From an uncultured Verrucomicrobiota bacterium (GTDB lineage Bacteria > Verrucomicrobiota > Kiritimatiellia > CAJWTS01): a stretch of DNA of 64,000 nucleotides. The notes beneath the pieces were generated by a model. It made no database searches, was not told where the DNA came from, and saw nothing but the letters and a program-made list of their open reading frames with translations. The DNA is taken from NCBI GenBank assembly GCA_913047795.1, contig CAJWTS010000009.1, positions 1 through 64,000 of the forward strand, written 5' to 3'. Shown in pieces: positions 1 through 18,808 of this stretch (the first letter of the stretch is position 1; each line of letters opens with the position of its first letter). Made by a program: the position numbers and the translations under genes.

Positions 1-416
1 ACAGATCCAGCACATCCAGGTCGCCCAGCAGGTTCGATATCGCCAGCGTGCGGAAATCGATATTCGACACGAGGGAGATGACATCCACCAGCCCGCTGTC
101 GATCAATGCCTGCAGATTGCTCCCCAGCGGCGCCAACTCGTCCAACGCACCCGTCAACAGATCCAGCACATCCAGGTCGCCCAGCAGGTTCGATATCGCC
201 AGCGTGCGGAAGTCGATGTTCGATACAAGCGTCGCCAGATTAATGAGGCCGCTGTCGGTCAGGGCCTGCAGATTGCTCCCGATGGGCGCAAGGTCGTCCA
301 ACGCACCCGTCAACAGATCCAGCACATCCAGGTCGCCCAGCAGATTTGAAATCGTAACCGTCCGCGTGTCGATGTTCGACACGAGCGAGAACAGGCCTCC
401 GATATCCGAGAGTTGA
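1..416 (-). repeat. 156-bp coding tandem repeat (52-residue unit)
   Basis: The sequence starting ACAGATCCAGCACATCC occurs at 1, 157 and 313, an exact period of 156 bp. The first ~55 bp of copies 1 and 2 and their last ~40 bp are nearly identical, with divergence concentrated in the middle. Copy 3 keeps about 30 bp and then degenerates. In protein the unit centres on VSNIDxRTxxISNLLGDL followed by LDLLTGALDxLAPxGSNLQ. Looser relatives of the SNID motif continue to about position 700. The period is a multiple of three, so copy-number change would keep the frame. The array probably continues beyond the left edge. Confidence 0.9.
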
Positions 417-3400
417 CCAGTGAGCAGATTCAGTGAGTCCAAACCGGTCAAGAGACCGGTGATCGCGGTCGTCTTGGCGTCAATATTCGAAACCGTAGCC
501 CCGAGATCGCCAAGGCTCGCCAGGCCGTCGATATTGCTGATCGCCCCCACCAGTGCGTCGATGGATCCGGTGATCAACGTAATATCGCCGATGCTGCCGA
601 CGATATTCGAGATGCTGATCGTGCGCTGGTCGATGTTTGAGACGGTCTGCGCAAGGCTACCCAGGCCTGAATTCAAAAGGGCGTCGATACCGGTTGAAAG
701 GCCGACGATGCCATCGAGTGCCCCGGTTATCGTACTCAGCACGATCAAATTCGTGCTGAGCGTGGCCAGGTCCGTCTCCATGCGATCCAGCGTGTTGCTC
801 AACGTCAGCAACGAGGCCAGCGTGACGTCCTGCGTTGTGACAACGGTCATCACGATCCGATCCTGATAATCAGGATCCCAACAGACCACCTGGTACGAAC
901 TCGGCGCGAAATCGAAATCGACGTCGTACGAATAGATGCCGGTCGCTCCCAACTGATTCATGGCGGACGGCCCCGTAACCGTGCCAAAGGCACCGTTCGA
1001 CACCACAATCATCACCTGACCCGGAGAGTGCGTTGCACGCGTTTTGTATAGAATCTCGAGGTTGTCACCCCGCTGGATCTCGGACGATCGATTCAATATC
1101 GTGGCCAGGTCAGACGCGACGTCGCCTTCAATAATCTCGACGAGACTGAGGATATTGGTCAGTGCGGGTGAAATGAAGCTAACCAGTAGATTCGTGGCGG
1201 ACTCCAGAATCGGGATAATGTCCAATGGGATCTGGCCGACGGCACCGGTCACACTCGTCTCGACGTCGCGCACAACATTGCTCAGGTTACGCAGGTCGTC
1301 ACGCACACCGGCGAAGCCGGACTGCACGTCCGCCTGAAGGCCGGTAAGGCTGCTGTTGATTGTCGCGAGATTCGTGTCGAGCCCGCCGATGCTCGCATTG
1401 ATATTGGAGACGGCGGCATCAATCGCTGTCAAAACATCCTCATCGGACTCCAGGCGAATCGTAAAACTCACGCCCGCGGTATACTTCACGCCGGAGAAGA
1501 CGATCTCAACCGTAGCGAAGAACACGTCACCATCCCCGTAGGTTGTCATCAGTGAGGTTTCCGTCGCGGAAACATCCCATGTCGACCAGAATATACCGTC
1601 GATATCGGAACCATTGGCGATCGTCTCGATAATCGTTCCCGAACTGTCGTAGATCGTAATAGTCGTGTCGTCGGGCTGCAGAACAAGGTCGCTGCCGTGC
1701 TCCATCCACGACTGAATCGTGTAGGTTCGTGCCGCCACGTTGAAGTTGAAGTTCGCGAGTACGCGATAGTCCGGCTCGATTTCGGACGGCGTCATATACA
1801 CGTCGATGGTACGCGAAGGATCGGCCCCCCACTGGAAAATGACCTCATCGAAGAAGTATTCGCGCGACCAGATGGTATCGAAGACGCCAAACGGGTAGAG
1901 ATTGGTTACGAACGGCCCCTGCAGACCGGAGGCGGACCAACCGCTGCTGTCAACGACACTGGCCTTATCGAGTGCGTTCGAGGTTGTTATGTCGCGGACA
2001 TTCCAGACGATTTCAAAGTAGCGTATATCGAATGCCGCATCGGAGTCGTCGAACGGCCCCAGAAAGTCCTTATCGAACCGGTTCGTGTAGGTCGCGTGCT
2101 GGACACGAATCCACGCGCTCGTGGATTGCACGTTGGGTGGTGTCCATGTGAACGCATTGGCGACGGGAATCGTCGCACTGTCGCCGGAGTCACTGACGGT
2201 GGATGTATTGATCTTGACCCAACTGGCCGGCGAGCGGTTGGGATCCAGCGAATAATACAGGTCGGCCTGACTCGGCCCACCCAGGGTCAGCCAACCGATG
2301 CCCCGCGGCTTAAGAGCGAAGACGTCGTTCTCGCCTCCGTTCGGACCGGTGATCGTATAGTTGGGCACAATAAAGAATGACGATTCGTCGCGCAATTCGG
2401 AGCGCGTATTGTGCTGCACAATGATGCTCGCCACCGATATCTGGTTTTGGATGAACCACGGCACGCTGAACGTATTGTTGGTCGAGTCAAACGCCACTGC
2501 GCCGTCAAAGATCTCGTTTGACGAAACGTTGATGACAAACGACACATTAAAATCGTTGACCATCGAACCACCGCGCAGCCACTCGATCAGCACGTCGTCG
2601 CCGACCTTGAAGAATCCACCGGGTGCCGGAGAAATAATCTGAATGATCGGTTCGGGAACAATCTCGAACGGTTCGGACTCGCCAAACGTGCCCAAGATAT
2701 CCGTAATTCGGATTACGATACCAGTGCCCACGGCGTTCGTCGGGATCGCCTCCCAGTCGTATGTCTCACCCGTCACACCCGTCGCAATCGGCAGGATCGC
2801 CCCGCTATCCAGGATGGCTTCGATCGTATTTGTGCCGGCCGTTCCAATCGCAAGCCATTCAATCTGGTTCGTCTCGCCGACGGCCCAGATGTCGAAGCGA
2901 TTCGGCCGGCTGACGCGGATACCATTGACCGTGAATGGATCGGAAACGTCCACCAGGCTGCCCGCTGATACGCGAATACGTGCGTTGGTTGAAGGCTCGA
3001 GGAACTGACCGATTGTCCATGCATAGATGTTCGAGACGCCGGAAGGCGGGAGGTTCTCGACGACCGGTGTTGCGTCGTACGAGACGCCTCCGTTCGCCGA
3101 ATACTCGATCTTCACGTTGTCCCCGGCTCCAGCGACCAGGAAGACAATCGGATTGGTTGATCCGATCGGCCAGTTTACAACCGCGGTCGGACTGAGAACC
3201 CGCAGGCCTTGCAACGTGAACGGCCGGGTGAAGGCCGTGAATCCAACATCGATCGCAGACGGCGAGTTTGTGATCGTGTATCTCAGTATCGCCTCAACCG
3301 TCGGATCGGCGTTGGTTGCAACATCATTCCATGGGAAAAGGCCGGCCGTAGCGGTCACCGGAAAGGAATTCAGCGGCGTGGCATCGTACGTGTCGCCATT

Positions 3401-6400
3401 GTCCACGGAGAGTTCGAATTTTCCAAAAGCCTGCGGGTCCATTCCGGCGTGCACCCATTGAATAAGCGTCGCGCCACCGATCGGCACGATGTCGTCGAGG
3501 ACCGGTGCCGTGAACAAGATGCCGCGCACGATGAACGGATCGGTGATGCCGACGACCGTTTCGGCCCCCACGCCACTCTCGATTTTCAACCGTGCAGCGG
3601 TCGAGGGATCGAGGAACGGACTCAAATCCCAATCAAACTGGTTAATGTTCATCCGGCCGAGACCCGTATTGAACGTTTGATCATTATTGATGACGCCGAT
3701 GAAGGTCTCAAACTCCAGCCCATCGCCGTCGTAGAAGATCCGCGCCTGGTTGGTCGGGTCAACCGCGCCCGCCGAGAGCCATTGGATCGGGTTCGTTGTT
3801 CCCACCGTCACGAGTTGCGCGTTCGTGGGGTCAATCGGCAGAATTCCGCGCACCGTGAAAAACGCATCCGACTCGTCGACGATGTTGCTGTATGCCGCGT
3901 GCTGATCCGCGATGCCCGTCAGTCGGTACTCCGCGCGGACCGTGGGCAGGGCCGGTGCGTGTGGCCAATAGCCGGCAGAGAGCCCGACGCCGCTCACGGG
4001 TGCAGCGTTGGTATACGTCAAGCCGCCATCATAGGTGATATCCAGGTTGCCCAGCGCGCCAACCGACTGCGCCTTCCATGACACCGCCGCGAGCACGTCG
4101 AGGTCGCGCGATTCGAAACCATTTGGATCAGTGATCAGGATACCCGCGATCGCGAACGACGAGACACCGAATAGATTTGTTGTATCGGCGACGGACTCGA
4201 CACGCACACCAGCCGTGGCACTCGGGGATTTCTCAACAATCCATACCACCTCATTCGTCTGGGGAGAGTCCACATTAGGTATGTCGATCGCAATCGGAAT
4301 CCATAGCGGAGTCGCAATCAGCGAATTGCTCGCCCAATATACATTGACGCGGTCCCCGGCACCGGCGGACTGCCACTTGATTGTGTTCGTCGCGTCGAGC
4401 AACCACTTGTCCGAAGCCTGCGGCGAGAGAACGTTGATGTCGGCGATCGTAAACGCTCCCGAGACACCCAGCACGTTGCTGTCTACAAGAGATGTAACTC
4501 GGACGCGCGCATTGGTAGACGGCTCGACCAGCACGTCCCAAAGATATACGTTGTTCGTCCCCGTAACGTTAGCCGTGCTTGCGATGATGTTGCTATATGA
4601 TCCCCCTCCATTGAGAGACACATCGATCGCCACGTTTGAGCCGGCACCGGAGGATTTCCATCGCATGTTAAATAGGTTGCCGACCTTGAGCGAGGAACCG
4701 GCCGGCGGATCGCTCACAAAGACACCGGCAAGCGTAAAGAAATCATCGGACAGATCCGCACCCGACCCCGTTGGCTCTCGAATAAGGATCTTCGCGCGCT
4801 CGGAAAGCATTCCCGACTGATCCGTCGGTATGCTCCAGTCATACGTATTCCCGCGAGCAGGCGATGGACTCGGAGCGAAGAAGGTCACCTCGTTCGTCGT
4901 ATGGACCCCACTTATATCGAAATCGATCAGGTCGATACGAACCGGACCAAACAGTATGCCCGCGTCCCAGACAATGCTCGTCGTTGTTCCGATATACCAT
5001 TTTTCGCCACCGTTGGGATCGACGACCTGAAACTCCCACCGTATCTCGAAGAAACTGTCCGAGACATCGCTAATCGTGGGGTCCTCGCCGTCGCGCACTC
5101 GGATCAACATCGTCTCGTTGTTATATAGGGTGTCGTTCTGACCCGGCGTCACCCAGTTCGAGTACACACCGACGTTCGGATAGTTCGTCGCGATCTCGGT
5201 CCAGTTCGTACCCGCGTTATCCGAGTACTCGACGATAATGTTATCGCTCACGGTGCCGGCAGAATCCCAGGTGATATCGTATCCAACACCGATCAACAGG
5301 GTTTTGTCGCCGACCTCATCCCCGTTCGGAAAGGTCACCACGACGCGACCGGCGGAATAGGCCAGTTGCACGTGATCCAGTTCGACCTGATCGGCGCCTT
5401 CCGATTTGTAATGCGCGCGCCATTTGAAACCGCCACCGGTCTTGGCATAAAACTGGCTGAAGAAGGTACCTATATTGGCGCTGATCAGATTCGCCGGCGA
5501 TGTATCCAGACCAAATCCCAGCCCCTGGGAGTTTGTCCATGCCTGGTCGGTGAGATCCCAGTAGTACCAGTTTGTTGCGTCACCTGTAATCTGATACTCA
5601 AGCGCGCCCGTACCTTCAATTAGGCCGTTGGTTGTTCCGAACCCAAGCAACTCGCCGTCAAACGGAAAAGGTACGGCCGGCTCAAGCGTCGGAACATCGA
5701 GCGGGAATGTGGAAATGTCGACGTGCACGCTCTGCAGGCGTGGCGTCAGTCGGTAATCTTCGGTATCGAATTCCACCCGGTACTGAAAATACTGTCCGCG
5801 CGGTATCGTATCGCCGATGATGTTGCCTCTGGAAAGGGTATAGTAGGAGAGGCTGTTCGTTTCGGGACCGAAGAACGGATCCGACAGCGGCAGCGTATTT
5901 CCGGATCGAACCTGGAACCGGAGGGTTACGGCACCCGACGCGTATTGATCCCATATCTCCTGCGACGTGAGTCGCCGTTGGTATACGGCGAGATCGTCGA
6001 TCCGTCCGTCGAACTTCTTGGCGAGATCAAACGCCGCCCCGATCACCGCACCCGCACCCGGCGTGCTGATTCCGCTCGACAGCGATGCATCCGAGATCGG
6101 CGTCCCGTCGATAAACAATCGCATCGACGTCTCGTCCACGGCCACGGCAATGTGTGTCCATTCCCCCACAACCACCGGAAGCGTATTCGAAATCACGACG
6201 GCGTTGTGCTGGAAATAAATGGCCCCATTCGTATCCGTTGCCAGGACATACCCATCGAAAGCAGACTCGCGCAGATCCAGAATCGTGCGGCTGCGAGCGG
6301 ACTCGGGGTTGATCCAGGCCAGCAACGTGAATACGGGCAGATCGAGCGAGGTACCCTCGGGAACAAGAATTCGCGAGGAGCCGCCGTTAAAGTCGATCGC

Positions 6401-9400
6401 TTCGTCAAATTTTCCCTCGGCACCCAACGTTGCAAAACTGATCGCACCGTCCGGCAATTGCCCGGTTACCTCGACAAGCACGCTGGTGCCAATCGGATCA
6501 TCCATCGGCCAGAGTGCTACCAGCCCATCGAAATCGGTCTGTTCGAGCGTATGCGCGGCTGCCTCGGACACCTCGATCACCCGATCATAAAGCGCAAGCT
6601 CATCGATCTGGCCAACCATCGTATCGCCCAGCCCATCGATTCCCGCGATCACGGCGTCGGCATTGATCAGGGACGACGCAACGACAACCACATGCTGCCA
6701 ACCGGCGCCCAACTCATCCGTGTCGTAACCATTGACGTAGATGGCGTCCGCGCCAAAACTGGGAATAATCCGGTCCCCGACAATCGAGATACGCTCTGAC
6801 CCGCTAAGCTGCAGTATGGCGTCGGTCGGATTCGCATTCTTGACCCAGAACTCCACCGATACAACCGAGCCGCAGTCGCCAAACGGGACCTGTTCACCAC
6901 CGGAAAAGTCGCCGGCATGGGTCCCGACCTGCGGATCCGACGAATCGTGACCGGCGGTGGCCCCGGCTCCGTGGTTGACGCCGACCTCATCAAACCAATC
7001 GTTGTCCATGTGCCAGAGATGGGTCAGCCCCAGCGTGAGCGGATCGAGTTCGTCAGCGACCGTTCCTGTAAGCACCGGCTTACCGAAGGACCCATTCGCG
7101 CCCCAGAACATATTTCCCCAGATCGCTGGACGATCTGCATCGAAGATGGACGAGACATACCGCGCCACGCCACGCACCTCAAAGCCGCCGCCAAAGTTTT
7201 CACCGATCTCTCCGCCCGTCAGGGCCCGATTCGCCGCGTAGATCGCCAATTCATCAACGACGCCGGAAAAGTACCGGTCTTCATCGCCATTCTTGCCGAT
7301 GTAGAAAGGCAAGGCCCCCAGACCCCCAAAAGCGGCGCCAATCTCGGTCGATGCGCGCCGGATCGCGTCGACGTAAAGATGAATCCAGGCCCCGCGCCTG
7401 ACGCCGGCCACGTGATGCCATTCGCCGTCATTGGCGCCGATGTCTCCCGTGAGTGCTCGTTTGGTCGCAAGGCTGTCCGACACGATGAACGCCATCGCGC
7501 CCGGCACGTCATTCGTGCCGTCGCTATTCACTTCGAAGGCGAAGTATCCGCTCGAATTATTCAGGGAAGACACGATCGCGCTCCGAACGGTCACTGAGTT
7601 GCGGAACCAGAAACTGAACGAGGCGTCGCGCAGTCCCGGCGACCCGTCCAGGTCCACGCCCGAGATAAACACGAACGAGTCGATGCCATCAAACGTACCC
7701 GATCCCGGCCCTACCCGTGACGACGGCACCGGCACAGCGCTGCCGCTCGGGGATCCGTTATTGCCTCCCGCCGAATCGACGATGGTCAAGGGCGACGGCC
7801 AAGCGCTTTCGTCCAGATGCCACAGCCCAACCAACGTGCCGTCCAGCACCGGAATAAATGGGCTCAAGTTCACTGGACCAAGCGAAGAGAAATCTCGGCG
7901 ACGTATCTCGTCTCCATACATTTCGCTCCGCTCTTTGTCAAAGGTCCCCAGCATAAACAGGTCGCCCGTATCGTCGACGATGTTGGTGACACCGTTAAAC
8001 GTAACCGTCACGCTTTCCACGATCGGTGTCGCGTCGCCGTCGCCCTCGAGGAAGACCCGGTACTGGAAGTAGGGGTTGACCGGAACGGTCGCAAGGGTGG
8101 AACCGGCGGCAGACGTGAAGAACGAATTGGGCCCGGTCGGCCCGGTGAAATCGTTCGTGACAGGGATTGTGTCCCCTGATCGAGCCTGAAACTTTACCCT
8201 GCCGCCAACCGTTCGACGCCCACGCACGAAATGTTTCTTCACGTCTCCGGATTCCAGGACACGGGAATCGTAAAGCGCTACGTCATCCAGTAGCCCCTCG
8301 AAGTAATCGTCCGCGGCTTCACCGAGCGAGACGCTGTTGGCATCGATCGGATCGTCCGCCGTAACAACGACATGGTTCCAGCCTTCGCGCAGGAGGCTGT
8401 TGCCGACGACGCCGTTCACATATACAACCGAATTCGAGAATCCCACGGATACCACGACGCGATCCTCGAACTTGATATAAATGGAATTATTGACGAGTTC
8501 AAGAATGCTGCCGGAACGCTCGTCCGTCTTCATCCAAAACTCAACGGTCTTGATCGCCGTGTCGGAATCCCCCGAATATTCAAGATCACCAACCGTGACA
8601 ACCGAGTTCGAGCCATTAAACACGCCGCTCCCCCGTCCCGCCTTCGCCAGCGGTGTAAAGGTGGCGTCATTCGGGGTGGTGCCCGAGTTCCCATTCCCGG
8701 TCTCATCCGCCCAGTTATTGTTCATTAACCACGCCGCCGCCATGTTTGCCTCCGAGAGATCCAACTGCGTGTCAGACTCCCAGGCAATGAGATCCCAGGC
8801 ACCGGCGAACCCGGGAGCCATCAGGCGCGACGTAAACGTTCCATAGCGGTAAAATCCCCCGTTATCGCGCTTGGCCAGACCGATATACGGTGTGTCGACT
8901 TCGGCTGGAGTTAGATCAATCTTCACGCGTTGTTCGGCCGCCAGAAAGTCGTCAACAAGATCATCGGTCGCTCGCGTTCGGGTTCCAAATATTCCAATTG
9001 CATCAATCAGGGGCGCCTGAAGCTTATCCTGCGACGTCTCCATCTGGATGCGATACTGAATGAAGCGATCCGTATTGGTAAAGCTACCTGCCGTGACAAG
9101 CGCTTCGTTGTCAGCCGTGTAAGAAGAGTTGGTCGTCCCGTCCGGACCCACGAACGCCGCCGTCAGGTTCGTCGTTTGGCCGGATCGAATCTGAAATATC
9201 AGGCTCCGCGGATCGGAGAAGTACAGGCTGGTGACCTCCTCCGCAGCGAGCGCGCGATTGAATACCATCGCGTTATCAAAGAGGGCATCGGCCTCGAGCC
9301 CCGACGAGCGATAGTCGTAGCCAATTCGGAATTTATGGGCCGGACTGAGCGCTCCGACGAGCCCGGTCCCGGATCCGCCAAGGACGCCGTCGATGTAAAC

Positions 9401-10216
9401 ACGAGTATCGCCGGTCGAGCCCAGCCACGTCATGACGACGAAATGCCATACGTCCTCAGACAGCACTGATGATGTCCCGAAAAGAGCCTGGTCGTCAACG
9501 TAGGGCAACACCTGCCCGCCTGGGGCGCCCAACATCCCGATTCGGAAACCTGTACTGCCAGCGGAGAGAAATATCGACTGGTAAAGCGTGATCGCTCTCG
9601 GCTTCATCCATATGGCGAGCGTGAACTCGGCACCACCCAGAAGTACAGGGTTCGGAAGCTGCACGTAGTCGTCATTCCCGTCCAGATTGGCAGCATGACT
9701 GCCCCTGATCGCGTCCGATGAGAAAGTCGCTCCGTTTTCCGCAGTAGCTTCGTCTCCTGACACCACGTCGATCCATTCGTCGTTGTCCATCCTGAGCCAG
9801 GCAATGAGCGTCGGGTCGGTGACAAAATCCGCATTGGCAACACTTGCGTGAATATATTGCCATTCATTCAGACCAATTCCACCGTCGTGAAGCCTCGAAA
9901 CAAAAATACCGGGGCCCTGAAACTGACCAGCGGCCTTCAACAGCGTCATGACCGCGTCGGTACCCATTGTGGCGCCAACTACGTTCGTCCCATCCTGCGT
10001 ATAGTCCGCAATCGTATTGTGATGACGGAAATCCGGCTGGATCACCAACTTGCCGACGCCATCCGCGACCTCGATCAGCCCCGGGTCGGAAGGCGTGTAG
10101 TCGATCGGAAGACTCAGCGGCCAGTCGTTGGTTTCGACAGCGACGGCTTTCCAGAGCGCGAGCGATATGATCGCGGCACAGGGCAACCAGATCAGTAGTC
10201 TTCGTTCACGCATCAT
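1..10216 (-). CDS. Giant LamG / Kre9-like repeat surface protein (3' end outside window)
   Basis: One frame stays open from the ATG at 10216 to the left edge, at least 3405 codons with no stop in the window. The start reads ATGATGCGT, with purine-rich GGAG and AAGG before it. Residues 1-27 form a Sec signal peptide (MMRERR, then a hydrophobic core ending in AVA). About five LamG/concanavalin-like domains follow, at roughly residues 136-333, 486-652, 793-1001, 1073-1213 and 1225-1424. They show the usual L-x-x-W-x-x-D entry and an 'LALYDR'-type exit, and are joined by linkers with an FQxRSG...QYR pattern. About eleven Ig-like modules of the Kre9/KNH type occupy roughly 1620-2640 (for example DPNGGEKWYIGTT). 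A poorly characterised segment (about 2710-2920) and a coiled-coil-like repeat tail (from about 2920) complete the visible part. It is probably secreted and surface-attached, as an adhesin or glycan-binding protein. The C-terminal anchor, if any, lies outside the window. Confidence 0.88.
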   Translation of the reverse strand, partial: MMRERRLLIWLPCAAIISLALWKAVAVETNDWPLSLPIDYTPSDPGLIEVADGVGKLVIQPDFRHHNTIADYTQDGTNVVGATMGTDAVMTLLKAAGQFQGPGIFVSRLHDGGIGLNEWQYIHASVANADFVTDPTLIAWLRMDNDEWIDVVSGDEATAENGATFSSDAIRGSHAANLDGNDDYVQLPNPVLLGGAEFTLAIWMKPRAITLYQSIFLSAGSTGFRIGMLGAPGGQVLPYVDDQALFGTSSVLSEDVWHFVVMTWLGSTGDTRVYIDGVLGGSGTGLVGALSPAHKFRIGYDYRSSGLEADALFDNAMVFNRALAAEEVTSLYFSDPRSLIFQIRSGQTTNLTAAFVGPDGTTNSSYTADNEALVTAGSFTNTDRFIQYRIQMETSQDKLQAPLIDAIGIFGTRTRATDDLVDDFLAAEQRVKIDLTPAEVDTPYIGLAKRDNGGFYRYGTFTSRLMAPGFAGAWDLIAWESDTQLDLSEANMAAAWLMNNNWADETGNGNSGTTPNDATFTPLAKAGRGSGVFNGSNSVVTVGDLEYSGDSDTAIKTVEFWMKTDERSGSILELVNNSIYIKFEDRVVVSVGFSNSVVYVNGVVGNSLLREGWNHVVVTADDPIDANSVSLGEAADDYFEGLLDDVALYDSRVLESGDVKKHFVRGRRTVGGRVKFQARSGDTIPVTNDFTGPTGPNSFFTSAAGSTLATVPVNPYFQYRVFLEGDGDATPIVESVTVTFNGVTNIVDDTGDLFMLGTFDKERSEMYGDEIRRRDFSSLGPVNLSPFIPVLDGTLVGLWHLDESAWPSPLTIVDSAGGNNGSPSGSAVPVPSSRVGPGSGTFDGIDSFVFISGVDLDGSPGLRDASFSFWFRNSVTVRSAIVSSLNNSSGYFAFEVNSDGTNDVPGAMAFIVSDSLATKRALTGDIGANDGEWHHVAGVRRGAWIHLYVDAIRRASTEIGAAFGGLGALPFYIGKNGDEDRYFSGVVDELAIYAANRALTGGEIGENFGGGFEVRGVARYVSSIFDADRPAIWGNMFWGANGSFGKPVLTGTVADELDPLTLGLTHLWHMDNDWFDEVGVNHGAGATAGHDSSDPQVGTHAGDFSGGEQVPFGDCGSVVSVEFWVKNANPTDAILQLSGSERISIVGDRIIPSFGADAIYVNGYDTDELGAGWQHVVVVASSLINADAVIAGIDGLGDTMVGQIDELALYDRVIEVSEAAAHTLEQTDFDGLVALWPMDDPIGTSVLVEVTGQLPDGAISFATLGAEGKFDEAIDFNGGSSRILVPEGTSLDLPVFTLLAWINPESARSRTILDLRESAFDGYVLATDTNGAIYFQHNAVVISNTLPVVVGEWTHIAVAVDETSMRLFIDGTPISDASLSSGISTPGAGAVIGAAFDLAKKFDGRIDDLAVYQRRLTSQEIWDQYASGAVTLRFQVRSGNTLPLSDPFFGPETNSLSYYTLSRGNIIGDTIPRGQYFQYRVEFDTEDYRLTPRLQSVHVDISTFPLDVPTLEPAVPFPFDGELLGFGTTNGLIEGTGALEYQITGDATNWYYWDLTDQAWTNSQGLGFGLDTSPANLISANIGTFFSQFYAKTGGGFKWRAHYKSEGADQVELDHVQLAYSAGRVVVTFPNGDEVGDKTLLIGVGYDITWDSAGTVSDNIIVEYSDNAGTNWTEIATNYPNVGVYSNWVTPGQNDTLYNNETMLIRVRDGEDPTISDVSDSFFEIRWEFQVVDPNGGEKWYIGTTTSIVWDAGILFGPVRIDLIDFDISGVHTTNEVTFFAPSPSPARGNTYDWSIPTDQSGMLSERAKILIREPTGSGADLSDDFFTLAGVFVSDPPAGSSLKVGNLFNMRWKSSGAGSNVAIDVSLNGGGSYSNIIASTANVTGTNNVYLWDVLVEPSTNARVRVTSLVDSNVLGVSGAFTIADINVLSPQASDKWLLDATNTIKWQSAGAGDRVNVYWASNSLIATPLWIPIAIDIPNVDSPQTNEVVWIVEKSPSATAGVRVESVADTTNLFGVSSFAIAGILITDPNGFESRDLDVLAAVSWKAQSVGALGNLDITYDGGLTYTNAAPVSGVGLSAGYWPHAPALPTVRAEYRLTGIADQHAAYSNIVDESDAFFTVRGILPIDPTNAQLVTVGTTNPIQWLSAGAVDPTNQARIFYDGDGLEFETFIGVINNDQTFNTGLGRMNINQFDWDLSPFLDPSTAARLKIESGVGAETVVGITDPFIVRGILFTAPVLDDIVPIGGATLIQWVHAGMDPQAFGKFELSVDNGDTYDATPLNSFPVTATAGLFPWNDVATNADPTVEAILRYTITNSPSAIDVGFTAFTRPFTLQGLRVLSPTAVVNWPIGSTNPIVFLVAGAGDNVKIEYSANGGVSYDATPVVENLPPSGVSNIYAWTIGQFLEPSTNARIRVSAGSLVDVSDPFTVNGIRVSRPNRFDIWAVGETNQIEWLAIGTAGTNTIEAILDSGAILPIATGVTGETYDWEAIPTNAVGTGIVIRITDILGTFGESEPFEIVPEPIIQIISPAPGGFFKVGDDVLIEWLRGGSMVNDFNVSFVINVSSNEIFDGAVAFDSTNNTFSVPWFIQNQISVASIIVQHNTRSELRDESSFFIVPNYTITGPNGGENDVFALKPRGIGWLTLGGPSQADLYYSLDPNRSPASWVKINTSTVSDSGDSATIPVANAFTWTPPNVQSTSAWIRVQHATYTNRFDKDFLGPFDDSDAAFDIRYFEIVWNVRDITTSNALDKASVVDSSGWSASGLQGPFVTNLYPFGVFDTIWSREYFFDEVIFQWGADPSRTIDVYMTPSEIEPDYRVLANFNFNVAARTYTIQSWMEHGSDLVLQPDDTTITIYDSSGTIIETIANGSDIDGIFWSTWDVSATETSLMTTYGDGDVFFATVEIVFSGVKYTAGVSFTIRLESDEDVLTAIDAAVSNINASIGGLDTNLATINSSLTGLQADVQSGFAGVRDDLRNLSNVVRDVETSVTGAVGQIPLDIIPILESATNLLVSFISPALTNILSLVEIIEGDVASDLATILNRSSEIQRGDNLEILYKTRATHSPGQVMIVVSNGAFGTVTGPSAMNQLGATGIYSYDVDFDFAPSSYQVVCWDPDYQDRIVMTVVTTQDVTLASLLTLSNTLDRMETDLATLSTNLIVLSTITGALDGIVGLSTGIDALLNSGLGSLAQTVSNIDQRTISISNIVGSIGDITLITGSIDALVGAISNIDGLASLGDLGATVSNIDAKTTAITGLLTGLDSLNLLTGQLSDIGGLFSLVSNIDTRTVTISNLLGDLDVLDLLTGALDDLAPIGSNLQALTDSGLINLATLVSNIDFRTLAISNLLGDLDVLDLLTGALDELAPLGSNLQALIDSGLVDVISLVSNIDFRTLAISNLLGDLDVLDL
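2290..5350 (-). repeat. Array of about eleven Kre9/KNH-like Ig modules inside the giant gene
   Basis: Roughly 300-bp protein-level repeats begin near 5345, 5035, 4730, 4445, 4145, 3850, 3530, 3215, 2935, 2650 and 2370. Each opens with a variant of hydrophobic-xx-P-N-G-G-E-x-W-x-x-G followed by I-x-W-x-x-x-G. Each closes with a segment like 'ARVRVTS...SDPFTVxGI'. This matches the Kre9/KNH-like beta-sandwich family common in secreted bacterial multidomain proteins. The DNA copies are strongly diverged, so the array is old, unlike the 156-bp repeats at the left edge. Confidence 0.75.
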
Positions 10217-10288
10217 TACCTTGCTTCTCCCTCTTCCGCTGTCGATCCATTCCATTCACAATGCAACACGGTCAAAATCGTAGCAGAG

Positions 10289-10813: not shown

Positions 10814-11521
10814 TCATGATTTGCGGCCGGGGTCGAATTTATAGCCGACACCATGCACGGTCTGGATGAAATTCGGCTCCGCCGGCTTCTTTTCAACCTT
10901 CTTGCGCAGGCTGGCCACAAAACTATCGAGCGATCGCTGCGTTCCAAAATAGTCCGAACCCCAGACGTCGTTCATCAGCGTCTCGCGCGACAACGCCTTG
11001 CCGGCGTTCGCAACCAGGTACGCAAGCAGGTCGAACTCCGTTCGCGTCAGCGGAACATCCTTGCCCTTCTGCTTCAACGTACGTGACTCCGAATCGAGCA
11101 CAAAATCTCCGAACTGGTAGATCGCCTGATCACTCTCCTTGACCTGCGTCCGGCGCAGAATGGCCTTCACGCGCGCGATCAGTTCGCGAATGCTGAACGG
11201 CTTGGTCATGTAGTCGTCGGTACCCATATCGAATCCAAGGATTTTATCGAACTCTTCTTCCCGGGCCGTCAACATGATGATCGGCGTACGCAGCCCCTTC
11301 TCGCGCACATTTTTGCAGACCTCATAGCCGGTCATGCCGGGCAACATGACGTCGAGAATGATAAGTGCCGGTTTTCGCTGCAGGGCGAGTGCCAGTCCGT
11401 CGTCACCATTATCTGCCTTGAGCACGTGAAATCCCTCGAACTGAAGATTCTCTTCCAACCCGAGCATGATCGCGTCGTCGTCCTCAACAACAAGGATCGT
11501 CTGTTTCGCCGGTTCAACCAT
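10814..11521 (-). CDS. OmpR/PhoB-family response regulator
   Basis: A 235-residue two-domain regulator. The receiver domain (about 7-120) has the acidic cluster VVEDDD, the phospho-acceptor Asp57 (in IILDVMLPG), Thr85 and the conserved Lys107 (YMTKPF). The C-terminal winged-helix DNA-binding domain (about 137-230) shows LTRTEFDLLAYL and the closing HGVGYKF motif. Its ATG overlaps the kinase stop by 8 bp, so the pair is surely co-expressed and is the cognate regulator of the kinase at 11514-13616. Likely targets are neighbouring envelope genes; the tandem site at 10345-10362 is a candidate. Confidence 0.96.
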   Translation of the reverse strand: MVEPAKQTILVVEDDDAIMLGLEENLQFEGFHVLKADNGDDGLALALQRKPALIILDVMLPGMTGYEVCKNVREKGLRTPIIMLTAREEEFDKILGFDMGTDDYMTKPFSIRELIARVKAILRRTQVKESDQAIYQFGDFVLDSESRTLKQKGKDVPLTRTEFDLLAYLVANAGKALSRETLMNDVWGSDYFGTQRSLDSFVASLRKKVEKKPAEPNFIQTVHGVGYKFDPGRKS

Positions 11522-13616
11522 CTCGGTTCTCGCGATTCATCAAGGTCACGTGAAACGTGCTCCCAAACCCAAGTTCACTTTCGGCCATAATTCGACCGCC
11601 GTGCGCCCGAACAATATGCCGGCATAACGATAGTCCCAACCCCACGCCGGTGGTCGTGCCCTCACGTTCGCGCCGCGCGCGGTAGTACCGCCTGAAGACA
11701 CGTCGCGACTCGGCACGCGTCATGCCAACACCACTATCTTTTACTGAAATTCGCACGCCGCCGTCAACTGCGCGTACGTTCACCTTAACATCAATGTCAT
11801 CTCCTGAGTATTTGACGGCGTTGTCGAGCAAATTGAGGAGCACCTGCTGGATCGCGTCGGCATCGACATTCATAATCGGCAACTCACCTTCGATCTCGAG
11901 CCCGATCTCGGCTTTCTTATGCGCCACGCGTTCGCGCGCGATCTGCACCGCCTCTTCGACAATCTGATGGACGGATTCGGGTCGCAGACTGTAGGTAAGC
12001 GCATTCTGCCCAAGTCGGACAAAGTACAGCACGCGATCGACCATCTGCGATAGTCGATCGCATTCCCGCACGATCGTTGAAAGAAACTCCTGGCGGCGCT
12101 CCTGCGCGCGCACGTTCCCGTAATAGAGGCTCTCGGAGAGCATGCGCATCGAGGACAACGGCGTACGGATGTCATGTGAAATGGCAGCTACAAATTCACT
12201 TCGCGCCTTGGCCTTGCGAAGCTCGTCCGTCACCTGGGCGAAGAGGGTCACCACGCCGAGCCCAATTCCGAGCACCAGCAACGCAATACCCCATACGTAG
12301 AGTTGCGCCTGCAGATCGCGCCTACTCTGGACTTCCGATGGGTCCGCGGCGTAGGCGTCAATCGTAAGGAAGGAAAGGGGTGGCGGCAGGTTCGTCGATA
12401 GTGCCGCACCCATTGTGCGGTCTACCGCGGCGTCCCCCCTCCCCGGAACAACAGGTCGACCCATCGCATACAGGACAAATCCACTGGGATCCGCAAATTT
12501 TTCAGCCGCAGGCACAAGAAACGCCGCCGCCGCATCTGTCGCAATCCGCAAACCGACGTAAAACGTTTCGCCCGCATCAAGTGCCACGAAGGCGTAGTAC
12601 CGCGATCCCACCTGGACCCATCGCCGTGCTTCCGGCCCCTCGACCGTTGCCCACACGGCACGCTCAATGGCTGCACGTTGCTGGTCCGTGTCCCGCAAGT
12701 TCTGCTCGCACTCTTTAAGCAACGCATGCAGGCTCTCGAGTTCGGAACGCTCGGCGTCGTTCGCGGCAGGCGTACGGCCCGATCCGGCCTCGCGTCGGAT
12801 CTCAACGATGCGCCGTGTCCAGCGTCGAATGTGCTTCAACATTTCCTCGCGCTGCAGTGCGACGATGGAGGGGAAGCGGCGAACCACAATCGAAAACAAT
12901 CGCAGCTCATTCTCAATCGCGCGATCCAGCTGGCCGGCCTGCTCATAGAGATCCGTCAATTCGCGCAGCACGGTAAGATCGTACATATAGCCCGCCGCGT
13001 CTCGAACCTGACGCCCCTTCGTTTCGTTCGCGAAGACGGCCACGGCTCGATCAAGCCACCGAATGGCGCTGGAAGGCTGACCCATGCGACCGTAGCACTG
13101 GCTCAGACCAAGGACCGCCTCCCAGAGCACGGGATGATCATAGTTAAATCGCTCCGCGATTCGGCGGTACTCGCCAATCGCGGCAGCCATGTCCTGCTTT
13201 TCAAACTGAAACTTACGCGCCACTTCCAGATAGCGATCCGTCTCCGCATCACTTTCCGCCTGCGGCGGCACTCCGATCATCGCGCGCGGATAGACAAGTC
13301 CATCCTCGATCTCGAACAGGTAGACCTGATCGACGATGGGATGCGCCTCGCGAAACGCTGCGGCTGTCTGGAGAAACAGGTCGTAGTTGCGGGACTGCCA
13401 GATCGCGCGATATTGCGTCGCAAGATCCTCCCTTACCACCGACAGTCGTTGCTGCACGTCACCGGATATTTCGCGCAGCGTCTCGTCCGCTGAGGCCGAC
13501 AAGCGCTGATCCATAATCACGCCGTGGCTTCGCAAAGCACGCCACGCCAGCATGCTCAATATGGCCGTGGGCGCAATCACAAGGACTACGACGGTGATGG
13601 CGATTCGACTGTTCAT
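11514..13616 (-). CDS. Sensor histidine kinase with large extracytoplasmic region
   Basis: A 700-residue membrane kinase. TM1 is at about residues 5-25 and TM2 at about 440-462, enclosing some 410 residues. The stretch at about 150-270 contains TPR-like helical pairs (for example VLWEAVLGLSQCYGRMGQPS), unusual for a periplasmic sensor. HisKA carries ISHDIRTPL with His481. The HATPase domain shows the N box LLNLLDNAVK, the G1 motif DSGVGM and G2 GVGLGLSLCR. It is complete, with no receiver domain. It is followed with an 8-bp overlap by the response regulator. The TPR-like part could bind a partner protein, perhaps sensing secretion or envelope assembly, but the signal is unknown. Confidence 0.95.
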   Translation of the reverse strand: MNSRIAITVVVLVIAPTAILSMLAWRALRSHGVIMDQRLSASADETLREISGDVQQRLSVVREDLATQYRAIWQSRNYDLFLQTAAAFREAHPIVDQVYLFEIEDGLVYPRAMIGVPPQAESDAETDRYLEVARKFQFEKQDMAAAIGEYRRIAERFNYDHPVLWEAVLGLSQCYGRMGQPSSAIRWLDRAVAVFANETKGRQVRDAAGYMYDLTVLRELTDLYEQAGQLDRAIENELRLFSIVVRRFPSIVALQREEMLKHIRRWTRRIVEIRREAGSGRTPAANDAERSELESLHALLKECEQNLRDTDQQRAAIERAVWATVEGPEARRWVQVGSRYYAFVALDAGETFYVGLRIATDAAAAFLVPAAEKFADPSGFVLYAMGRPVVPGRGDAAVDRTMGAALSTNLPPPLSFLTIDAYAADPSEVQSRRDLQAQLYVWGIALLVLGIGLGVVTLFAQVTDELRKAKARSEFVAAISHDIRTPLSSMRMLSESLYYGNVRAQERRQEFLSTIVRECDRLSQMVDRVLYFVRLGQNALTYSLRPESVHQIVEEAVQIARERVAHKKAEIGLEIEGELPIMNVDADAIQQVLLNLLDNAVKYSGDDIDVKVNVRAVDGGVRISVKDSGVGMTRAESRRVFRRYYRARREREGTTTGVGLGLSLCRHIVRAHGGRIMAESELGFGSTFHVTLMNRENRDG

Positions 13617-13799: not shown

Positions 13800-15242
13800 C
13801 TACCGAATGCGCGTTTCGATCTCGAACACCCAGCCGCGAATCTGATCGATATCGAGCGCCGTGGGACGCAGTGTCATGTACTTACGATAGTGCGTCAGCG
13901 CCCTCGAGGACTTGTCAAGATGGTCATCATAAAGAATGCCGAGGTTGTAATGCACGTCCGCATCGGAGGGGTCGATCCGCAACGCGCGCATATACTCGCG
14001 TCGCGCCTGACTATAGAGCCCGCGTTCGGCGAGCATGATCCCCATGTTGTAGTGCATGTCGAGCTTCTCCAGGTCGACCACGCTACCCACTTCGGCACTG
14101 GCGCCCTCCAGGCGATCAGCCACGCCCACAGCCCGACTATGTCGCCAATCCCGCTTGCGCAGTTCTTCGGCGAGAATCGTCAACTCGTGCTTATTCTTAT
14201 CAAGGACGGAGTCCTTGGCACGCAATTCACGTTTCGTTTTCTCAAGTTCCGTCTCAAGTCCCGCGCTGGACTTGACGTAGCGGCCAAACGCGCGCTTGTC
14301 GCGCGCATACGTCTGCTGGTCGTCCTTAATCTGTCGGCGCAGGGCGTCGCTCTGCGCCTTGACTCGCGCCAGTTTAGTGCTCAGATCGCGTTCACGACGC
14401 GCCAGGTTCTCGCGCGTGCCGGAGTCCTCGCGCATGACTCGTTCAACCCGATCCACGCGCGACTCAAGCTGTTGATTCTCCCTTTCAAGCTCGTCCTTGG
14501 CACGTTTCAGCTCCATCGCATCCCGTTTGAGCTTCACGACGAAGTCCGAATCCACGGCCACGCGTGGGGCCGGCAGAGGCGCCGCCTGGCGCTGGCGCAA
14601 CGCGGCGAGTTCCGTGTCGAGCCGTTGCTTATCGCCGAGCAACAATTTTTTCTCCGTTTCCACACCGGCCAATTTTCGTTCGAGTTCGGAAATCTTGTCG
14701 GCATGCTCTTGGGTCGTGTTCTGCTCGCCCTTGAGATCGCTCAGCATGGCGGCCATATTCCTGCGCTTCGTCTCAACCGCCTCCATGCTGACCTTGAGGT
14801 TCGCGTTCTCAGATTGGACGCGGGCGAGATCCGTCTTCAGCGTGTCCATGTTTTTGCGCAATTCCAGATTCTCACGGACCAGGCGATTGTATTTATCAGC
14901 ATCCGCCGGATTCGGTCGCGCGTCGGCCGCGGGCGGCGCCGCGCGTACGGGGACGGGGACGGGCGCTTCGCCTGTACTACGTACCGGTTCAGTTAGATCA
15001 GGTTCGTCCTCGATCGCTTCAGCATTCTCGTCGAACGACCAGCCGCCGAATTCCTCTTCCCCTTCGGCGTCCTCGACCGCTGCGGCTTTCGGCTTGTCGC
15101 CTTCTACGGCCGACTCGGCGGCCCTCTTTGCAGGTGCCTCATCCGCACCTTCCTCTTCCCAGGAAAACTTAAATTCGTCGTCGGCACGTCCACTGACAAG
15201 CACCGCGAAAAACACAAACAAGATTAAGAAGAATCGCGTCAT
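13800..15242 (-). CDS. Secreted coiled-coil protein with C-terminal TPRs
   Basis: A 480-residue protein with an N-terminal signal peptide (MTRFF, hydrophobic core, cleavage near SGRA-DDE). An acidic low-complexity stretch (about 25-115) precedes a long heptad-rich coiled coil (about 118-370). Two TPR units follow: LDMHYNMGIMLAERGLYSQA and DADVHYNLGILYDDHLDKSS. Last gene of the four-gene secretin operon, 11 bp after the secretin. Its TPRs resemble those of outer-membrane pilotin or assembly factors such as PilF/PilW, but the coiled coil is not typical of them. A structural or assembly role in the secretin complex is likely from context. Confidence 0.85.
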   Translation of the reverse strand: MTRFFLILFVFFAVLVSGRADDEFKFSWEEEGADEAPAKRAAESAVEGDKPKAAAVEDAEGEEEFGGWSFDENAEAIEDEPDLTEPVRSTGEAPVPVPVRAAPPAADARPNPADADKYNRLVRENLELRKNMDTLKTDLARVQSENANLKVSMEAVETKRRNMAAMLSDLKGEQNTTQEHADKISELERKLAGVETEKKLLLGDKQRLDTELAALRQRQAAPLPAPRVAVDSDFVVKLKRDAMELKRAKDELERENQQLESRVDRVERVMREDSGTRENLARRERDLSTKLARVKAQSDALRRQIKDDQQTYARDKRAFGRYVKSSAGLETELEKTKRELRAKDSVLDKNKHELTILAEELRKRDWRHSRAVGVADRLEGASAEVGSVVDLEKLDMHYNMGIMLAERGLYSQARREYMRALRIDPSDADVHYNLGILYDDHLDKSSRALTHYRKYMTLRPTALDIDQIRGWVFEIETRIR

Positions 15243-15253
15243 CGCACCTGGCT

Positions 15254-16864
15254 TTACCTTCGTTCGCGGCCGCCGCGAACAGCTTTAGCCTGCTTGCCGG
15301 TATCGCCGCCTGATCGCATGCCTTTCGGCTTCTTTTTTATATCACGCATGCGGCGGATACTTTCTTCGCCGGTCATAATGCGGGGTGTCAAGAAGACGAC
15401 CAACTCGTTCGATGTTGACTCCACCGAGGTGGACCGAAACAAGGCTCCGAGCAACGGAATCCGCCCCAGAAAGGGTACACTTGATGTCGTGTCGGCCTTC
15501 TCATCCTGGATCAACCCGCCGATAATGACGGTCTGACCGTCGCGCACCATCACGGTCGTCTCCGCCAAAGCTTTCTGCACAACCGGAATCGGGAAGCGGC
15601 CGGGAAAGGTGTCGGCAACCGTACTCACCTCCGGCTTGATGTCCACCGTAATAAATCCCTCGTCATTTATCTGGGGGATGACGGAAAGCATGACGCCCAC
15701 TTCAATAAACGAGATGGTTTCCGCGATGACATTGGTAGATCCGCTCTCCAACTGGGCCTCGACAAGCGGCTCGTCCCGCACAACCTTGATCACCGCTTCA
15801 TGGCCGTCCAATACGGCGATATGCGGGTTTGAAAGAACCTTCGTGTCTCCAATCGTTTTGATCGCATCAAGCACCATATTCAGTTGATTTCCGTCGCCGA
15901 TCACACCGTAACTCAGCGAGAAATTACCTTCTCCGCGGGCCAATAATGGCGAAAGGTTCGCCGAACTGACCATGAAACGAGGGTCAATGCCCTCCACCAG
16001 ATGCTCCCAGTTAATTCCGAACTTAAAATCGTCCGTCAGCCGCACAGAGATAATCTTGGCCTCGATAAACACCTCTTTGGGGCGGCGGTCGAGCAGGTGA
16101 ATCATCCGTGAAATACGGCGTACGCGATTCGTCGTATCTTCGACGATCAGCGTTTTCGTCCGAACATCGGCGTCTACCCGACCAATGCCGTCGGTCAACA
16201 TTGGCACGATGCGCGGCTGGACCTCGACGACGTCCCCGTACTGGAGCGTGAAGGTTTGCGTAATTGTGTGACGTTCACGCGTCACGCTCGGAATCTCGGC
16301 CGTAGCGATCACCGATTCCATCTCCTTGATCTTCTCGGCGGTATCAATCAGCAGCATCGTACCGGTCTTGTCATCCGCAACGACCCGTCCCTGCGGCCCC
16401 TTGACCTGCTCGAGCAACTTCAGGACGTGCGACGGCTCGGCATACTTCAGGTCAATGATCTTCATCTCGCGAGGATCATGAAACCCAACACCGTGCAGCA
16501 CCTGGTACTCGTCGGCCGTCATGATCCGCAGGATATTGCCACGCATCTCGTATGCGAGCCTGGGCGCCGGAACCGAGGCGAGGGCAATCTCTATCAATTC
16601 ACAGATCTCGACCTCATCCAGCAGCAACTTAACGTTGCCCGCCACCGCCTCGCTCACGACCATGCTCAGATTACCCTTCAAAGCCGCGAGTTGGAGTACA
16701 TCGTTGATCGACATAGCCCGTCCGCGCGAATCAACCCGGATTTTCTTCTTGAGACCCGGGATCTCATAGTCGCAGAGCTTCGTTGGTTTCGCGACGGCGG
16801 TCTCCGCCATGCATGGCACTACCAGCGAAAGCAGCACAGAGAGGCACAGTAAATTTTTCAGCAT
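15254..16864 (-). CDS. Outer-membrane secretin (GspD/PilQ superfamily)
   Basis: A 536-residue secretin with a signal peptide (cleavage near CMA-ET). An STN/N0-like domain is at about 40-115, one or more N-type ring-building repeats at about 130-265 and the secretin core at about 265-505. The core contains the beta-lip signature VPFLGRIPLLGALFR and the closing ELVVFLTPRIM. The last ~30 residues are basic and lack an obvious S-domain. It would form a multimeric outer-membrane channel. A GGAG sequence sits 9 bases before the ATG, and the gene starts 14 bp after the GspC-like gene. No GspE/F/G or PilB/C homologue lies nearby, so the rest of the machine, if any, is elsewhere. Confidence 0.95.
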   Translation of the reverse strand: MLKNLLCLSVLLSLVVPCMAETAVAKPTKLCDYEIPGLKKKIRVDSRGRAMSINDVLQLAALKGNLSMVVSEAVAGNVKLLLDEVEICELIEIALASVPAPRLAYEMRGNILRIMTADEYQVLHGVGFHDPREMKIIDLKYAEPSHVLKLLEQVKGPQGRVVADDKTGTMLLIDTAEKIKEMESVIATAEIPSVTRERHTITQTFTLQYGDVVEVQPRIVPMLTDGIGRVDADVRTKTLIVEDTTNRVRRISRMIHLLDRRPKEVFIEAKIISVRLTDDFKFGINWEHLVEGIDPRFMVSSANLSPLLARGEGNFSLSYGVIGDGNQLNMVLDAIKTIGDTKVLSNPHIAVLDGHEAVIKVVRDEPLVEAQLESGSTNVIAETISFIEVGVMLSVIPQINDEGFITVDIKPEVSTVADTFPGRFPIPVVQKALAETTVMVRDGQTVIIGGLIQDEKADTTSSVPFLGRIPLLGALFRSTSVESTSNELVVFLTPRIMTGEESIRRMRDIKKKPKGMRSGGDTGKQAKAVRGGRERR

Positions 16865-16878
16865 CGTGAAGCGCTCCG

Positions 16879-17847
16879 CTAATTAATGATCAGGCGATCG
16901 ACGCCATCGGTCAGTGTAACACCGCCGCGTTTTATTTCGTCCACTCGCACCTTGTCACCAAGAATGGTCACCGCGTCACCCGTCCTGAATAAGGTATTCT
17001 CGGCAATCACCTTGTCCTTAAGGAACACCGTCGAATCGGCGGGGTCGTCTTCAAGGGAGACAGCCACAATCTCATAGTTTTCCTTCGCATACTTCTTCCA
17101 GTCCGGCCCGGGGCTCACCGGCCCAGGACCCGTGGGCACCCTGAAAGCCCTAAACGGATCACGAAGCCTTAACGGTTCAGTATACCACTCAATATTCTTC
17201 AATTCGGCATCAGATACGATATCTGAACGAAAGGATACACCGGCCGTGTGCAATTCCGATGCAGCGGCACTTGACTTCAAGCCGATGACTATCTCGTAAA
17301 TGATTAATCCGATCAATATCAAAACACAGGTCGCTAATATACGGTTAAATCTGTGTACATTGAACGAATTCGCCATCCGATTACGCATCGAATCGGTGCC
17401 GACGGGTCCCGCGGGGGTTGCGGCAGGGGCCGCGTCTGACGGTGAATCTCCAATCAAAGCGCTTGGCGGGCCGCCAAGGTGTGGTTCGGTGAGCGCTAAC
17501 GCTGCGACCTGCGCCCCGTCTTCGTCAGGCCCTGATTCTTCGTTCGTGGCCTCGCTGTCGTCGTCGCGGTCCGCGAGCTTCAAACGCGGGCGGTCCTGCT
17601 CATCGGTTTCTACGGATTCCGCGGCGGCATCGGGCTCAATATCATCCAATGTGATGATTTCGTCCGGATCCCCGCGGATCGCGTCTTCGTCCAGCGGAGC
17701 GTCCGTCCGGATGATGGAACCCGTGGCCTCCTCAGGCTCGTCCGGCGCGCGTTCCGGGGCATCTGCGGCATCGGATCCCTCTTCAGGAGAATCCTGAATG
17801 ACCTTCAAGAGCTTCTCTTCAGGCGACAAATCTTCTTCAGAAGACAT
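16879..17847 (-). CDS. GspC/PilP-like inner-membrane protein with acidic cytoplasmic tail
   Basis: A 322-residue bitopic protein. Residues 1-150 are strongly acidic and disordered-looking, one TM segment lies at about 169-190, and the periplasmic part (about 200-322) ends in a compact domain with ILGDKVRVDEIKRGGVTLTD. That last part resembles the HR domain of GspC or PilP, which contacts secretin N domains. I chose the ATG at 17847: GGAGG lies 8 bases upstream, whereas an ATG at 17862 overlaps that ribosome-binding site. The gene overlaps the ATPase gene's end by 11 bp. It probably links the cytoplasmic ATPase to the secretin. Confidence 0.8.
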   Translation of the reverse strand: MSSEEDLSPEEKLLKVIQDSPEEGSDAADAPERAPDEPEEATGSIIRTDAPLDEDAIRGDPDEIITLDDIEPDAAAESVETDEQDRPRLKLADRDDDSEATNEESGPDEDGAQVAALALTEPHLGGPPSALIGDSPSDAAPAATPAGPVGTDSMRNRMANSFNVHRFNRILATCVLILIGLIIYEIVIGLKSSAAASELHTAGVSFRSDIVSDAELKNIEWYTEPLRLRDPFRAFRVPTGPGPVSPGPDWKKYAKENYEIVAVSLEDDPADSTVFLKDKVIAENTLFRTGDAVTILGDKVRVDEIKRGGVTLTDGVDRLIIN

Positions 17848-18724: not shown

Positions 18725-18808
18725 CTGGGTATCTCGCGATCGGACTACCGCCAAGCGAATCCGTAGTCGTTCGCAATTGTGGGAATGGGTATCGCAGTCG
18801 TCACGCGT

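Follow-up and report, generated by a model that had tools for sequence, protein, structure and literature searches.

A giant surface protein cut off at a contig end in an uncultured Kiritimatiellia bacterium, and the a-less rotary ATPase locus of which it forms part

With what other parts does a bacterial protein of several thousand residues work, when the gene that encodes it runs off the end of its contig? The question is raised by the 64,000-nucleotide stretch analyzed here (the window), bases 1-64000 of contig C9 in the genome assembly G000 (3.5 Mb, 132 contigs) of an uncultured bacterium of the Kiritimatiellia. According to the list of open reading frames (ORFs), a single frame on the minus strand is open from position 2 to 10255, that is, for 3418 codons with no stop before the edge. 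The ATG at 10216 leads directly into a signal-peptide-like helix (MMRERRLLIWLPCAAIISLALWKAV) and is therefore the probable start, which leaves 3405 codons in the window and agrees with an initial annotation of a frame of at least that length running off the edge. The main finding is the machine of which the giant is a component. We read the window as carrying the first half of the genes of a surface machine driven by ATP (probability roughly 0.5), most likely an ATP-hydrolyzing rotary motor, not an ATP synthase, that is coupled through a membrane protein, p449, to a giant adhesin exported by a type II secretion system (T2SS).

The left edge of the window is the end of a contig and not the end of the gene. 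A 156-bp tandem repeat array identified by Tandem Repeats Finder (TRF) at positions 1-388 continues on contig C4, the extreme end of which matches the leftmost 312 bases of the window at 82%. There, a 631-codon frame running in the same direction as the giant is closed by a normal stop and provides the remainder of the gene (631 codons plus stop; L004:15265-17160, minus strand). C9 ends with ...GATGTGCTGGATCTGT, C4 begins with TGACGGGGTCGCTGGATGAG, and the right end of C4 starts at the next base of the repeat; the joint keeps both the frame and the 52-residue register of the repeat (...GDLDVLDL / L / TGSLDELAPLGSNL...) and is a sequence present inside the array. Because repeat sequence, frame, and register are all restored, the assembly appears to have broken in the 156-bp tandem repeat. 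We infer the join from this register, with support from the sister genome G001, in which an unbroken 4,121-residue homolog lies between the same neighbors (46% identity over 3,500 columns). Since that homolog is uninterrupted, a frameshift artifact, which the initial annotation had named as a way in which it could be wrong, is unlikely. The joined giant has at least 4,037 residues, a lower bound given that repeats may have collapsed. On a public contig with an identical abA gene (L032:2-2694; DPVW01000419.1, deposited as Latescibacterota UBA8231), the giant's tail is found as two overlapping frames.

Downstream of the giant, C4 carries p449, two alpha-like ATPase genes (abA and abB), the genes for epsilon, c, b-delta, gamma, and beta, and then GspE and GspF, in this order; GspF is followed by a peptidase-MA protein, GspG, GspJ, GspK, a PilM-like protein (outside the profile scan), and GspM. 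GspG, J, K, and M were identified by Pfam, which assigns the pilus-like genes of the cluster in G000, as in G031, to a T2SS; the PilM/PilN matches came from the relatives L025 and L030. Secretin, GspE, GspF, the major pseudopilin G, the minor pseudopilins J and K, and M are thus present in one locus, and C9 and C4 together make up a chromosomal T2SS locus, the middle of which holds the giant, p449, and a rotary ATPase. By Pfam and NCBIfam, the F-type set comprises alpha/beta, gamma, epsilon, b-delta, and c, with an epsilon of 76 residues that is a beta-sandwich lacking the C-terminal domain, a c subunit of 72 residues, and a b-delta fusion that has a single membrane helix. It is one of three rotary ATPases in the genome, beside a canonical F-type enzyme with subunit a (C40) and a V/A-type enzyme (C32), and there are about seven full-length GspE paralogs. 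In two families within the class, the gene next after GspM encodes a MORN-repeat protein (L006:17306-18703, L030:7891-8946).

A scan for abA over 84,980 species genomes returned 79 loci, of which ∼68 are of the cluster type and come from Kiritimatiellota, neighboring metagenome-assembled genomes (MAGs) labeled Verrucomicrobiota or Lentisphaerota, Omnitrophota, and Planctomycetota. The other 11, of the Smithella type, encode a different ATPase and were excluded, as they have subunit a, a beta-first gene order, and a separate branch; in the beta tree, the cluster enzymes fall on one side of a branch with 100/100 support. There are two alphas in Kiritimatiellota and one in most Omnitrophota and Planctomycetota, and the order giant-p449-ATPase-GspE-GspF is common to all three phyla. 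L090, L091, and L095 form a long separate branch and gave no match for a c subunit. At some loci where no giant adjoins p449, a ∼570-590-residue protein of unknown family precedes it (L034:6874-8610, L036:6835-8610, L037:236-1954); at two others, the preceding protein has 606 residues (L046:1662-3482, TPR plus CarboxypepD_reg) or 708 residues (L057:6026-8152).

What probably ties the giant to the ATPase is p449, a periplasmic protein with a signal peptide and one C-terminal membrane helix. Where enough DNA upstream of an a-less ATPase locus was available, the protein adjoins it in 46 of 52 cases. Its model in G000 (predicted local distance difference test score, pLDDT, 88.9) consists of two Ig-like plus helical-bundle units followed by the C-terminal helix, and its last ∼25 residues (TTWIIIYIILGFL..LLFFLRWYGK) are the best-conserved part. 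No credible sequence relative was found in the PDB, and neither the p449 model nor the fusion model described below had a fold match at E <= 1e-3. Giants from the three phyla, which differ in length and domains, share a C-terminal tail made up of a coiled coil and then an invariant Pro with a short hydrophobic strand, typically (K/E)PVVxxWLE. A giant bearing this tail is directly upstream of p449, or fused to it, at 28 of the 39 p449-bearing loci whose upstream DNA could be read. Within the class (240 genomes), 33 genomes have the tail and 40 have p449, with both in 30, p449 only in 10, and the tail only in 3 (p = 2.8e-26); with each genus counted once, the tail/p449 counts are 26/1/2/79 (both in 26 of 108 genera; Fisher p = 1.4e-21, inflated by the relatedness of genera). 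The two co-occur even where they are on separate contigs or widely spaced (G069, G101, G129, G038, and G043).

The initial annotation had looked to the left for a C-terminus and a sorting signal. The C-terminus is indeed on C4; a general sorting signal of the PEP-CTERM kind (many per genome, with a transmembrane segment and a basic tail) was rejected, as a genome has about one copy of the tail and the C-terminal 631 residues of the giant contain no transmembrane segment. Because it occurs about once per genome and accompanies p449 even when unlinked, the tail is better read as a dedicated dock. Six Omnitrophota genomes (G262, G402, G356, G372, G315, and G379) have giant and p449 in a single frame, as does locus L087. 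The fusion in G262 (C27 1170-36881; L118-L119) is complete, with 11,903 residues, no Ns, the p449 domain at its end, and the a-less ATPase after it; that of G402 has at least 9,738 residues, and the other four, on partial pieces, at least 4,108 to 6,516. In every fusion, the tail occupies the place of the signal peptide of stand-alone p449, and when the G402 fusion is modeled with AlphaFold (mean pLDDT 77.6), the segment ITKSWLE after the invariant Pro forms a strand immediately before the first strand of p449, a placement that suggests docking of the giant's tail on p449 by strand addition. A further apparent fusion of lipoprotein, giant, and p449 in G175 (3,660 residues) is an artifact of a run of Ns. 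Taken as a unit, giant, p449, and ATPase are in our judgment likely to be coupled. Three loci encode instead a p449-like periplasmic and transmembrane protein in fusion with a GGDEF diguanylate cyclase domain (L070:1130-3208, L074:1700-3739, L082:6779-8698), and the GspE of the window genome carries an MshEN domain; given these two features, the machine may be under cyclic di-GMP control.

Is the ATPase a synthase or a motor? Subunit a was found at none of the ∼68 cluster loci in the Planctomycetota-Verrucomicrobiota-Chlamydiota (PVC) group, whereas the same search found it at 11 of 11 Smithella control loci; the sole subunit a of G000 belongs to the canonical operon. Of 56 genomes (duplicates removed by hand), 47 retain the ion-binding Glu of c; in the nine that have lost it, substitutions falling exactly on the canonical Glu column in the second transmembrane helix replace it by Met (G000, G001, and four more), Gln (two), or Ala (one). 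These losses are scattered over the beta tree, where well-supported relatives with Glu stand between at least three of them (G000; L049 versus G027; L082 versus L074). The catalytic side is preserved: Walker A and the catalytic Glu of beta are intact in 58 of 58 rows and the Arg finger in all 73 first alphas (abA), counts that include the Smithella rows. In the second alpha, abB (L004:10808-12289) and its relatives, the Arg finger is lost in 34 of 35, with Walker A kept. This is the pattern expected of an ATP-hydrolyzing machine in which ion flow would be optional and the second alpha would have an altered role.

The same data bear on the proposal that the enzyme is simply one more ATP synthase or ion pump of the ordinary kind, which takes its subunit a from the canonical operon and merely happens to sit in a T2SS locus. 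Beta and the first alpha do score above the ordinary atpD/atpA NCBIfam cut-offs, a subunit a is encoded elsewhere in 20 of 27 cluster genomes, and most c subunits keep their carboxylate. Yet clusters in all three phyla lack subunit a while retaining every other subunit, the c Glu has been lost several times, no subunit a at all was detected in the remaining 7 of the 27 genomes (incomplete MAGs), and the co-occurrence and fusion of giant and p449 would be left unexplained. We regard a synthase as improbable.

For the motor reading, we propose the following steps. The T2SS would export the giant to the surface; its tail would contribute a beta-strand to the first domain of p449; the membrane helix of p449 would touch the c-ring; ATP hydrolysis would turn the ring and thereby move p449 and the giant; and the lectin-like head of the giant would hold polysaccharide, giving adhesion and, if the chain holds that far, probably gliding or reeling along a surface or another cell. 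A mechanical, rotary drive of the giant stands at about even odds in our estimation, and gliding as its outcome is put forward tentatively. It is likewise possible, if doubtful, that the locus encodes a new class of rotary appendage of Gram-negative PVC bacteria, in which a c-ring without ion channel, driven by ATP hydrolysis only, would turn inner-membrane p449 and the giant; that the giant, with 3 to 12 thousand residues, would in such an appendage be threaded through the T2SS secretin and adhere, glide, or work against cells or polysaccharide is a similarly speculative addition.

Several observations weigh against the motor. Eleven loci have p449 but no adjacent tail-bearing giant, and six a-less ATPase loci (L068, L071, L078, L091, L095, and L054) lack p449 by the first profile. 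Retention of the c carboxylate in most genomes would be hard to understand if ion coupling served no purpose in any of them, and the subunit a of the canonical operon could supply the cluster ATPase. The contact between p449 and the c-ring is read from the order of the genes and from the conservation of the helix, the split tail on L032 may be an assembly error or a real frameshift, and the whole case comes from the genes of uncultured MAGs.

The position of the ATPase raises another alternative, namely, that it energizes export or assembly in the manner of FliI/SctN and unfolds, feeds, or retains the giant at the T2SS instead of moving it on the surface. Its operon separates the two halves of the T2SS and is immediately followed by a dedicated GspE paralog, giants of up to 11.9 thousand residues would be hard to export, and FliI/SctN-type NCBIfam models match, with lower scores. 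FliI-type export ATPases, however, lack gamma, c, and a peripheral stalk in the form in which they are complete here, p449 with its signal peptide and C-terminal membrane helix would put the contact on the periplasmic side, and T2SSs elsewhere export large proteins with GspE alone. An export ATPase is thus rather unlikely, although we consider it a stronger candidate than a synthase. The features of the window that belong to this locus are as follows:

2-10255, minus strand: giant surface protein, N-terminal 3418 codons (ORF list; continuation on C4; homologs)
10130-10216, minus strand: signal peptide region of the giant (hydrophobic segment at residues 20-38)
5876-9718, minus strand: five LamG-like (concanavalin-A-like lectin) domains, residues ∼180-1460 (Pfam PF13385 and PF02210; outer limits approximate)
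1976-5341, minus strand: eleven Ig-like modules, residues 1639 to about 2760 (motif scan; no Pfam family)
2-1468, minus strand: coiled-coil/helical repeat tail (SNID..T...ISNLL repeats), continuing into C4 and ending in the KPVV-type docking tail (sequence; tail alignment)
1-388, no strand: 156-bp tandem repeat array, site of the assembly break (TRF; contig ends)
10402-10758, minus strand: small lipoprotein, 118 residues, lipobox-like VVSC, Ig-like (homolog identity; weak Big_2 match)
10814-11521, minus strand: OmpR-type response regulator (Pfam; 59-63% conserved in relatives)
11514-13616, minus strand: histidine kinase with TPR-like sensor part (Pfam; conserved in relatives)
13800-15242, minus strand: coiled-coil/TPR protein, weakly similar to pilotin-like Tgl (family profiles; relatives)
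15254-16864, minus strand: secretin, GspD/PilQ type (Pfam PF00263, E = 3e-45; conserved in relatives)
16879-17862, minus strand: 327-residue protein, putatively in the GspB/GspC place by position (no Pfam/NCBIfam match)
17837-18754, minus strand: GspA/ExeA-like AAA ATPase (Pfam AAA_22; 57-63% identical in relatives)

Most of what the initial annotation had said of the giant's architecture is confirmed. The helix right after the ATG at 10216, with its hydrophobic segment, fits the signal peptide; about five LamG domains appear as four stretches of Laminin_G_3 (PF13385, E = 3e-68) and one of Laminin_G_2 (PF02210); the about eleven Ig-like modules correspond to 11 copies of the pattern (V/I)xxPxxxxxxxxGxxxxIxW, located from residue 1639 to about residue 2660; and the repeat tails run on to C4. 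The Kre9-like reading of the Ig-like modules was dropped, as Pfam gave no Kre9/KNH match in the giant at E <= 1.

The secretin operon, two-component system, and lipoprotein are beside the giant as first described. The lipoprotein, 34-49% identical to homologs adjoining giants in G001, G027, G031, G109, and G118, stands before the giant in most relatives, and the whole or a large part of the set GspA-like ATPase, secretin, TPR protein, kinase, regulator, lipoprotein, and giant recurs in six (G027, G109, G118, G050, L057, and L046). The GspA-like ATPase scores below the cut-off of the XrtA ATPase model TIGR03015. In G101 and G038, where the giant is unlinked from the rotary ATPase, none of kinase, regulator, and secretin is among its neighbors; these three thus appear to track the T2SS/ATPase locus and not the giant itself. 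The idea of a dedicated partner set is therefore upheld in part: neighbors are conserved and the T2SS is real, but the most informative partners, p449 and the a-less ATPase, lay beyond the edge. This is also where a simpler account can be judged, in effect the initial annotation's reading with no motor added, in which the giant is a passive adhesin with its own T2SS, and ATPase, kinase, and regulator are hitchhikers. The conserved kinase, regulator, and secretin and the LamG/Ig make-up would suit such an adhesin; co-occurrence of p449 and tail when giant and ATPase are unlinked, together with the giant-p449 fusions, makes it the least probable of the alternatives. From the T2SS genes onward, the window (18868-64000) holds a long exopolysaccharide-type cluster with glycosyltransferases of families GT2 and, in large number, GT1, a carbamoyltransferase, and PIG-V-like and PMT-like transferases. 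A 370-residue protein without family at 18868-19980 is 57-59% identical in relatives.

How does this locus compare with known systems? It shares with a T2SS the secretin, GspE, F, G, J, K, L/M-like, and GspA-like genes in one place, and differs in being interrupted by the giant, p449, and the rotary ATPase. N-ATPases (alternate F1F0; TIGR03324/03305) are likewise encoded in an additional F-type operon that includes an alpha, beta, and b/delta-like subunit of its own. They have subunit a and a beta-first order, whereas the cluster has neither and its proteins miss the cut-offs (488/750.5 and 480/752).

The nearest analogue is the F1-like ATPases of mycoplasmas, in which atypical F-type enzymes of Type 2 (G1-ATPase; gliding, Gli349/Gli521) and Type 3 (F1-like X0; MIB-MIP) have been described (PMC3369863, PMC8406192, PMC11864180, PMC12994834). 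In both cases, an extra F1-like ATPase exists besides the real ATP synthase and is tied to large surface proteins by genomic partnership (here, co-occurrence and fusion with giants), a cluster membrane protein has a signal peptide, a big external domain, and a C-terminal transmembrane segment (Protein 5 there, p449 here), and hydrolysis drives or enables a surface function, as proposed here from genes. However, Types 2 and 3 are defined by the absence of delta, b, and Fo subunits (PMC3369863), whereas the present cluster has c and a fused b-delta; no counterpart of the 12-transmembrane-segment Protein 1 was seen here; and Gram-negative envelope genes, a T2SS, and different giant proteins are found. 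A special kinship to G1-ATPase is unsupported: cluster alpha and beta fall below the MMOB1660/1670 and MSC_0619/0618 NCBIfam cut-offs (415/600, 414/850, 313/520, and 381/570 bits), and with 414 bits, canonical beta lies nearer to G1-beta than does cluster beta with 331 bits. A clustering of alpha with the mycoplasma enzymes has been published.

The ATPase itself is not new. In the accessible text of Seymour et al. (2023; PMC10066038), a "symbiotic" type 2/3 F-type ATPase adjoining type-4a pilus genes, evidently the same enzyme, is reported from Omnitrophota with attachment and surface motility as proposed functions, and giant ORFs in the same genomes, some with Laminin_G_3, are treated as a separate trait; that text makes no mention of p449, the tail, the fusions, or the loss of either subunit a or the c carboxylate. 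Beyond that paper, the literature searched, preprints not included, gave no link between giants and the ATPase. To the extent that these sources cover the subject, the giant-p449-ATPase unit, the docking tail, and the two losses are additions, as is the extension of the Omnitrophota system to Kiritimatiellota and Planctomycetota.

The function of such giants has been called poorly understood. For those of three largely uncultured phyla, the locus reveals a partner, an anchoring protein, and a docking motif, as well as a link to a motor. Rotary ATPases are usually viewed as ion-coupled energy converters; here is a c subunit from which evolution has repeatedly removed the ion-binding residue, and it becomes a testable question whether a surface protein can be moved by an F-type ring that has no subunit a.

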